Part shown: positions 20,349-21,473 of the stretch, piece by piece
How the letters are laid out: each line of letters opens with the position of its first letter
Position numbering within the stretch: position 1 is the stretch's first letter
Notes under the pieces: model-generated
The model's database searches: none
What the model was told of the DNA's origin: nothing
What the model saw: the letters and a program-made list of their open reading frames with translations, nothing else
Made by a program: the position numbers and the translations under genes
Virus record (IMG/VR): IMGVR_UViG_3300044733_000994
Coordinates: 1 to 25,044 of that record
From: a virus
Direction: 5' to 3' (one strand)
DNA: 25,044 nt

Positions 20349-20702
20349 GTGACGACAATCCCTGCCGCTGATACCAAAAAGAAACGCCGTTCGTCGGTAA
20401 GTCCTACTCAGAGGTCTTTAGCTGCGCTTCGTGAGCGAGGTTACTTATGTCAGATCGTCGAGCACTGGAACCCGTGGGCTCGTATACGCCAGGACTTGTT
20501 TGGGATCGGCGACATACTTTGTCTCAAGGACGAGGAGACCCTCTTAGTACAGACGACCTCAAGAGGTAACGTCTCAGCTAGGGTAAAGAAGATTGCAGAG
20601 AGCGAACATCTTCCGGCTATCTTGCGAGCAGGCTGGAAGATAGAAGTTCACGGATGGGGTAAGTTAAAAGAAGGGTGGACTTGCAAGGTTGTGGAGATCT
20701 GA
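20349..20702 (+). CDS. PD-(D/E)XK-like phage protein with QTTS motif
   Basis: A 117-residue protein starting with GTG. The stretch TQRSLAALRERGYLCQIVEH, the following WNPWARIRQDLFGIGDIL and then TLLVQTTSRGNVSARVKK is a pattern I know from a family of small phage and bacterial proteins related to restriction-endonuclease-like folds: Asp in GIGD, beta strand, then a second motif. Here the usual (D/E)-x-K is replaced by Q-T-T, so it might be a nuclease with changed catalytic residues or only DNA-binding. It is followed by a strong terminator, so it may be a monocistronic early gene. Confidence 0.6.
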   Translation: MTTIPAADTKKKRRSSVSPTQRSLAALRERGYLCQIVEHWNPWARIRQDLFGIGDILCLKDEETLLVQTTSRGNVSARVKKIAESEHLPAILRAGWKIEVHGWGKLKEGWTCKVVEI

Positions 20703-20737
20703 TAAGATTAGTTTGTTGTCGTAGCAGACAATGTATT

Positions 20738-20818
20738 AAGGCCGTTTACTCATGCTCTCGACCCTTGTTGCAAGACTTGGGTTCTGCTACCGAGAGCAGC
20801 AGTAAGCGGCCTTTTTTA
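20738..20818 (+). terminator. Long-hairpin intrinsic terminator, possibly a small RNA
   Basis: AAGGCC plus GTTTACT (20738-20750) pairs with AGTAAGC plus GGCCTT (20801-20813), with one G-U pair; after a 2x2 internal loop, TGCTCTCG pairs with CGAGAGCA (20753-20760 / 20791-20798). The run of six T (20812-20817) follows. The 30-base apical part contains further complementarity (ACCC / GGGT and CTTG / CAAG). This stem of about 21 bp is far longer than needed for termination and may belong to a stable RNA. Confidence 0.8.
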
Positions 20819-20821
20819 TTG

Positions 20822-21062
20822 TCTATACGATGACCGGCGAGAACGGTCGTAAATCGCTCTATGCGCGAAGAGCAAGCGCATTCAAGCAAGAATGCTTAGC
20901 CGGGCTTGAGGCCGCAGAGGATATGGCTGCGGAGCCGGGGTCGACACCCGCTAGAGCCTTGAGTATTGGGTCAGGCCAACTCAAAGAGTGTTATACGCAA
21001 TACGGCACCTGATTAGCTCTACGAACTTTGTTCGTAGTTGGTCGTGGTTTTGCCTGGAGAAA
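20822..21062 (+). ncRNA. Hairpin-rich noncoding stretch before the HNH gene
   Basis: No convincing gene: a 60-codon frame from 20830 has no SD and unrelated composition. In the + strand, successive hairpins can be drawn: GACCG/CGGTC (20832-20848), GCATTC/GAATGC (20878-20895), CCGCAG/CTGCGG (20912-20932), CGGG/CCCG (20936-20950), GAG-TTGG/CCAA-CTC (20961-20982) and CTACGAAC-TTT-GTTCGTAG (21019-21037). The density suggests a structured RNA or a leader of the HNH gene. I could not match it to a known RNA family such as tRNA or group I intron. Confidence 0.35.
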
Positions 21063-21065
21063 ATG

Positions 21066-21473
21066 ATGGGTAGCTACTCAGATCTGTTGCGGAGTCCGAT
21101 GTGGCAAAAGAAAAGGCTGGAAGTTATGCAAGCAAAGGGGTTTGCTTGCGAGATATGTGGCAATACAGAGCAAATGCTGCATGTTCATCACAAAGAATAC
21201 TTCAAGGGGTACAAGCCTTGGGAATACGATGTGGAACAACTTGCCCTTCTTTGCGAGCAATGTCATACGAAAGTTCATAGCGAAACCGATTTTTTGAAGT
21301 ACGTTATATCAAGACTTCCTCTTGATGGCCCAAATTCAAGAGATGAGATAACAGGTTTGCTTGTTGGATACCTTGGTTATTTCACAGAAGAAGAGGCTAA
21401 AGAAGGAAGGATGAATCGGTACGTTTTGTTAGGCATTGAAGCAAAGAAAAAGGGGAATCAAGATGGAGTTTGA
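21066..21473 (+). CDS. HNH endonuclease
   Basis: Two ATGs lie at 21063 and 21066; GGAG (21056-21059) is spaced 6 bases from the second, so I use 21066, giving 135 residues. The zinc/catalytic elements are CEIC (28-31), HVHH (39-42, HNH catalytic His) and CEQCH (63-67), with the usual DVEQLALLCEQCHTKVH order. The C-terminal part is helical with an unknown role (EEEAKEGRMNRYVLLGIEA). It could be a free-standing homing endonuclease or a DNA-processing phage enzyme. It lies directly after the structured noncoding region, and its end overlaps the next gene by 11 bases. Confidence 0.85.
   Translation: MGSYSDLLRSPMWQKKRLEVMQAKGFACEICGNTEQMLHVHHKEYFKGYKPWEYDVEQLALLCEQCHTKVHSETDFLKYVISRLPLDGPNSRDEITGLLVGYLGYFTEEEAKEGRMNRYVLLGIEAKKKGNQDGV

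Follow-up and report, generated by a model that had tools for sequence, protein, structure and literature searches.

The pR'-6S RNA-tR' region of phage lambda combines a strong promoter, a short leader and an intrinsic terminator with a long operon that needs read-through. Read-through there is under Q-type control, and the pR' leader is not known to be a conserved knotted family. In phage HK022, putL is found just downstream of PL, and the put RNAs are ~70 nt long, consist of two stem-loops and occur in two copies per genome (PMC9378689). According to PMC12286853, GOLLD, ROOL and OLE are large structured RNAs that came out of comparative genomics, GOLLD being lake-derived. Here, we analysed a 25,044-nt virus fragment (the window), in which a preliminary description had pointed to a hairpin-dense non-coding segment at 20822-21062. 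This flagged segment most likely forms the downstream half of a long non-coding RNA, predicted to lie at the operon starts of many uncultured phages. As in lambda pR'-tR', the window holds a predicted promoter followed by a predicted intrinsic terminator within ~200 nt, a likeness at the sequence level only. Compared with GOLLD, ROOL and OLE, the present RNA is shorter and built of exchangeable modules. None of these three families had an Rfam match in the element loci.

Table 1. Features of the RNA element and its flanking genes (window coordinates).
Feature	Position	Strand	Remarks
Conserved 117-aa phage gene	20349-20702	+	Directly upstream; stop overlaps promoter
Predicted sigma70-type promoter	20681-20708	+	TTGCAA 20681-20686, 16 nt, TAAGAT 20703-20708, extended TGA; start ~20715
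P1 5' hairpin	20715-20732	+	GTTGTC/GACAAT, loop GTAGCA; 91% paired (set A1), 96% (set A3)
Pseudoknot 5' strand GTAGCAGA	20721-20728	+	Pairs with 20783-20790; covariation
Terminator-like hairpin	20738-20817	+	Fold z -7.2, R1 98.7 bits, outer-stem covariation
Outer stem	20738-20750/20801-20813	+	Covariation in set A3
Inner stem	20753-20760/20791-20798	+	Conserved CA/GC internal loop between outer and inner stems
Apical stem	20761-20764/20779-20782	+	
Pseudoknot 3' strand TCTGCTAC	20783-20790	+	Sits between apical hairpin and inner stem
U-run	20812-20817	+	Ends terminator-like hairpin
P0 3' strand ATTGTC(TATA)CGATGAC	20818-20834	+	Candidate long-range partner of RNA 5' end, directly past U-run
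60-codon open frame	20830-21012	+	Probably untranslated
3' module, cluster 2 (most of flagged region)	20835-21055	+	Position and hairpin density
GGAG ribosome site and HNH endonuclease gene	21056-21059; 21063-21473	+	PF01844 2.8e-7, phrog_119 2e-17

The flagged segment is as rich in hairpins as had been described. Both of the stems named at the time are present, the perfect 8-bp stem CTACGAAC-TTT-GTTCGTAG at 21019-21037 and the CCGCAG/CTGCGG stem at 20912-20917/20927-20932. We counted non-overlapping, perfect Watson-Crick hairpins in 20822-21062 and compared the counts with 500 dinucleotide-preserving shuffles. Five of the hairpins had 5 bp or more in the stem (1.39 on average in shuffles, P 0.002), three had 6 bp or more (0.36 on average, 0/500 shuffles as high) and one had 8 bp (P 0.024). 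The global folding energy of the segment was ordinary (z -1.5, second estimate -1.9), a measure that is uninformative for this part of the element, since counterparts in other phages that match Rfam family RF02932 or covary strongly also have z near 0. No Rfam family matched the flagged region even at E 10, where there were only chance miRNA and snoRNA scores far under the cut-off. ARAGORN detected no tRNA in the window, and neither program matched a group I or II intron, tRNA, tmRNA or known riboswitch there, as the inspection by eye had indicated for tRNAs and group I introns. Relatives of the segment among the viral contigs searched were near-identical copies only. The flagged coordinates begin 5 nt past a U-tract and miss the main element, which adjoins immediately upstream (20681-20817). 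The idea of a structured, undescribed RNA was right, although most of the proof comes from beyond the flagged coordinates, namely from the 5' module that ends in this U-tract (20715-20817) and from other types of the 3' module that follows it.

The window contains virion structural genes, then a minus-strand recombination set (Sak annealing protein, NinB and YqaJ exonuclease) and then a plus-strand replication-type set. The 117-aa protein encoded directly upstream of the element had no Pfam, PHROG or NCBIfam match, and its PDB matches (thrombin) were taken as chance. Searches for its gene gave 216 relatives in viral contigs, from which we kept 80 loci, and five in INPHARED; in other phages, antiterminator genes are found close to its relatives. 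Three situations were found after this gene: a type A element, as in the window, a type B element with another sequence and the same layout, or neither. The gene itself shows ~90% DNA identity across many viral contigs, and the sequence past its stop switches abruptly between unrelated segments. The stop is evidently a recombination boundary. Loci of clusters 3 and 8 (3' module clusters, see below) have another upstream neighbour, a PDDEXK/Holliday-resolvase-like gene (L104 1355-1903, phrog_244, 1.1e-14).

The 5' module is an RNA of ~105 nt and a near palindrome, whose aligned copies finish in a GC-rich stem and a U-run. In the window, 20703-20822 folds at -49.7 kcal/mol, far better than chance (z -7.2). 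Sigma70-like boxes were found at a near-constant distance before P1 in 46 non-redundant loci, so the transcript should begin at P1. Several of these promoter copies are exact consensus, such as TTGACA-N17-TATAAT in L169; the copy in the window is weaker, at 8/12 to consensus. A standard consensus scan of the window listed neither the promoter nor the terminator, because the promoter was under its threshold and the hairpin loop was too large for it.

Sequence and covariation make it very clear that the 5' module is a structured RNA family absent from Rfam, found in well over 150 viral contigs. A first scan with a 16-base outer-stem pattern returned at least 120 stretches of viral contigs, and almost all of them fit the sequence profile of the element as well. 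We aligned 51 diverse members (set A1) over P1, the pseudoknot and the outer, inner and apical stems, and 95.4% of the cells were paired. The covariation score of this set was 0.357; shuffles gave 0.174 (0/500), and slid alignments did not exceed 0.104. Five of the seven pseudoknot pairs change on both sides, and all four Watson-Crick types occur at two of them. Since the first pattern had fixed the outer stem, the flanks were left free in a second scan, which relied solely on TTACTCATGC and GCAGYAGTAA, separated by a gap of free length. This again gave at least 120 stretches, nearly all of them real. Among 59 non-redundant elements in this second set, 57 had a perfect pseudoknot match of at least 6 bp, and the two exceptions also lacked the outer stem, as expected of chance matches. 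The outer stem varies yet stays paired in the second set (GCCGT/ACGGC, GCCAC/GTGGC, GACTCC/GGGGTT and others). In set A3, comprising 52 sequences picked without constraint on the outer stem or pseudoknot, the covariation score was 0.453, against 0.178 in shuffles (none of 500 as high) and no more than 0.129 when slid. The conservation of the TTACTCATGC...GCAGYAGTAA core is partly built in by the search. Type B elements do not contain the TTACTCATGC core and share the layout, pseudoknot, promoter and position.

Model R1 of the 5' module matches the window at 20709-20816 (98.7 bits, E 3e-23), a sequence that was in its training set. An independent match was found in the complete circular genome of a seemingly uncultured phage, MW202484.1 (77.6 bits, E 1.2e-18), which was reached by a route other than the viral-contig scans and has a new pseudoknot pair, GTAACGGT/ACCGTTAC. 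The element occurs in a single copy per contig, in contigs of up to 50 kb and also in this complete genome; copy number and gene order are partial, as the collections hold fragments. In MW202484.1, the 5' module lies at 33505-33608, and the 'hypothetical protein' UOF77725.1 (33533-33892, corresponding to L241 2491-2850) overlies the RNA element and is probably a misannotation. Among 84,980 bacterial genomes, all 19 exact 16-mer matches were chance by inspection and profile score. Searches without a positive control, whose negative outcome carries little weight, found no R1 match in 369 genomes of one class and no RF02932 match in 274 genomes of one class. Nucleotide BLAST of the window element against known phages returned nothing relevant.

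Past the U-run, the elements continue for 200-350 nt as a structured, GC-rich 3' module. These modules fall into at least 16 sequence clusters that are unlinked by BLAST over 150 nt. Clusters 5 and 9 correspond to RF02932, the Betaproteobacteria-1 RNA, at 82-93 bits (gathering score 49.4). The family forms the core of the 3' module in these clusters, in the same position behind the 5' module, which it does not include. RF02932 can also stand alone, as it matches at 93.4 bits in the isolated Acidovorax phage AP1 (OM049504.1; L240 2450-2573), between the primase and the next gene and without a 5' module. No RF02932 match was found in the window, in L001 (E 5) or in window 20690-21100 (E 10). In cluster 1, double changes were seen at 17/59 predicted pairs, with a covariation score of 0.262 versus 0.133 (0/500), a structure favoured somewhat by having been predicted on the same alignment. 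Cluster 0 had double changes at 10/47 pairs with poorly aligned members left out, a count that replaces an earlier 33/65 which included them. Other 3' module types are structured, by covariation or by their match to RF02932. The structure of the window's own 3' module is suggested by position and hairpin density rather than by covariation, since cluster 2 consists of near-identical copies only. Small frames that start inside the 3' end of the RNA (L112 7531-7758, cluster 0 ends) share STLGEPM/TTLGEVM and are perhaps a leader peptide.

In cluster 0, the 3' module is preceded by a 5' module of type A in some loci and of type B in others, and contigs whose upstream gene differs by ~10% share a flagged block with 100% identity. 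The 5' and 3' modules evidently recombine between phages. A mobile RNA, as had been considered for the flagged segment, was not borne out, even though modules are swapped in this way. Many 3' modules extend without a break to the ribosome site of the following gene, and some end in a terminator-like run of their own (cluster 4; L241).

The ~18 nt at the start of the RNA are also able to pair with 20818-20834, just past the terminator, in a helix that we call P0. Own ends paired better than swapped ends, both in a first set (-13.4 versus -11.2, sd 0.36, 0/200) and in an independent set (-14.6 versus -12.7, sd 0.33, 0/300). Column-wise covariation showed no excess over shuffles, so that P0 failed this strict test and was kept on the partner-swap comparisons alone, and the pairing is weak in clusters 3, 5 and 8. 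We therefore regard P0 as a supported but unproven helix. As the 5' end can pair past the terminator, both modules are likely to be part of one read-through RNA. If real, P0 excludes P1 and the pseudoknot and forms in the read-through RNA only.

In the window, the HNH gene directly downstream is the first gene of an operon. HNH genes are recurrent neighbours, being downstream in 43/137 loci as two subfamilies, with 25 near-identical copies of the one in the window. The link to an HNH gene that had been noted is correct for the window and not obligatory. Elsewhere, the HNH gene is replaced by replication-type, PAPS-reductase-like, ParB-like or queuine tRNA-ribosyltransferase-like genes, in some loci by a major capsid gene (PF19821, 1.2e-78) and in some by terminase genes (assigned by eye). 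This variety of neighbours indicates that the RNA is not an HNH accessory, and it is what would be expected of an operon-level leader. Relatives of the window's HNH protein (L008-L011) were found without the RNA element.

With some reserve, we lean towards reading the flagged region as the 3' portion of a terminator-gated phage leader RNA, which would yield both a small RNA set free at the terminator and a leader made by read-through. Transcription would start at ~20715 from the predicted promoter, and the first ~105 nt would form a hairpin whose loop makes a pseudoknot with a strand lying within a strong intrinsic terminator. By default, polymerase would stop at the U-run and a small, compact RNA would be released, protected at its two ends. 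Some polymerases might read on, through RNA folding or a factor, to transcribe the 3' module and the operon behind it. The 5' end of this longer transcript could then exchange P1 and the pseudoknot for P0, which would close the first domain so that the 3' module could fold beside the ribosome site of the first gene. The structure of the 5' module, its pseudoknot, the promoter position and the structure of other 3' types are established on computational grounds. The regulatory RNA proposed in the preliminary description is thus the reading we favour, with termination, read-through, the switch and operon control as the parts that we infer. Weighing against this leader model are the window promoter, with only 8/12 to consensus, the ordinary folding energy and exclusively near-identical relatives of the window's 3' module, and the weakness of P0 in the column test and in three clusters. 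If terminator gating is true, the element represents a switch made of RNA that sits where phage operons begin and is open to testing in a laboratory strain with reporter plasmids. The orphan family RF02932 gains a genomic setting, that of a leader of phage operons placed after a knotted terminator, and our clusters suggest that it is one among at least 16 types of 3' module that can replace one another. More tentatively, a constant input of promoter, knot and terminator could combine with exchangeable structured outputs to control any downstream operon by RNA alone, possibly diversified by an arms race or by HNH-driven gene conversion.

The main rival to terminator gating is a stand-alone, trans-acting RNA, which we consider rather unlikely. 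In that case, the 5' module would be a small-RNA gene, the 3' module would give another, larger RNA directed at the host or at defence, and the downstream gene would be incidental. The element's own predicted promoter and terminator speak for such an RNA, and the location beside unrelated genes fits it as well. RF02932 is an sRNA gene in Rfam and does without a 5' module in phage AP1, and the terminator-like runs of cluster 4 and L241 would give their 3' modules an end of their own. Were read-through a rare event, the element might be no more than a gene for a small RNA. Against this, many 3' modules continue directly to the next ribosome site, and P0 would link the 5' end to sequence beyond the terminator. 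A put-like RNA, which would bind RNA polymerase at the beta' zinc-binding domain and make it resist later terminators as in HK022, is improbable. The present RNA is likewise a structured phage RNA at an operon start, as putL is, but compared with the description of put (PMC9378689) it differs in size, fold and terminal U-run; it has a pseudoknot and its own terminator-like end, and its single copy contrasts with two put sites per genome.

A short protein gene that is hairpin-rich by accident is a very improbable reading of the flagged segment. The frame is open over 60 codons and its codon score of 0.07 is intermediate, between the 95th percentile of wrong frames (-0.07) and the 5th percentile of genes (0.126). 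However, as the preliminary description had stated, it has no ribosome site: no Shine-Dalgarno sequence precedes it, and its ATG falls within the predicted long-range helix (20828-20834), which would bury it. The frame matched no protein family, phage records gave no homologue for it at E 1, only identical copies were found in viral contigs, and other 3' modules also hold chance frames on both strands. Finally, the 5' module has next to no chance of being a DNA element such as a cruciform or a recombination or replication site, as its near palindrome and the recombination of modules could suggest, given the recurrent G-U pairs in its stems (GU 36/51 and UG 22/51 at two outer pairs), the constant orientation of promoter and U-run and the pseudoknot, which is a single-strand feature.

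Away from the element, two of the viral contigs contained hammerhead type II ribozymes above the gathering score, one at L265 1104-1163 (plus strand, 38.2 bits) and the other at L289 2726-2785 (minus strand, 41.9 bits).
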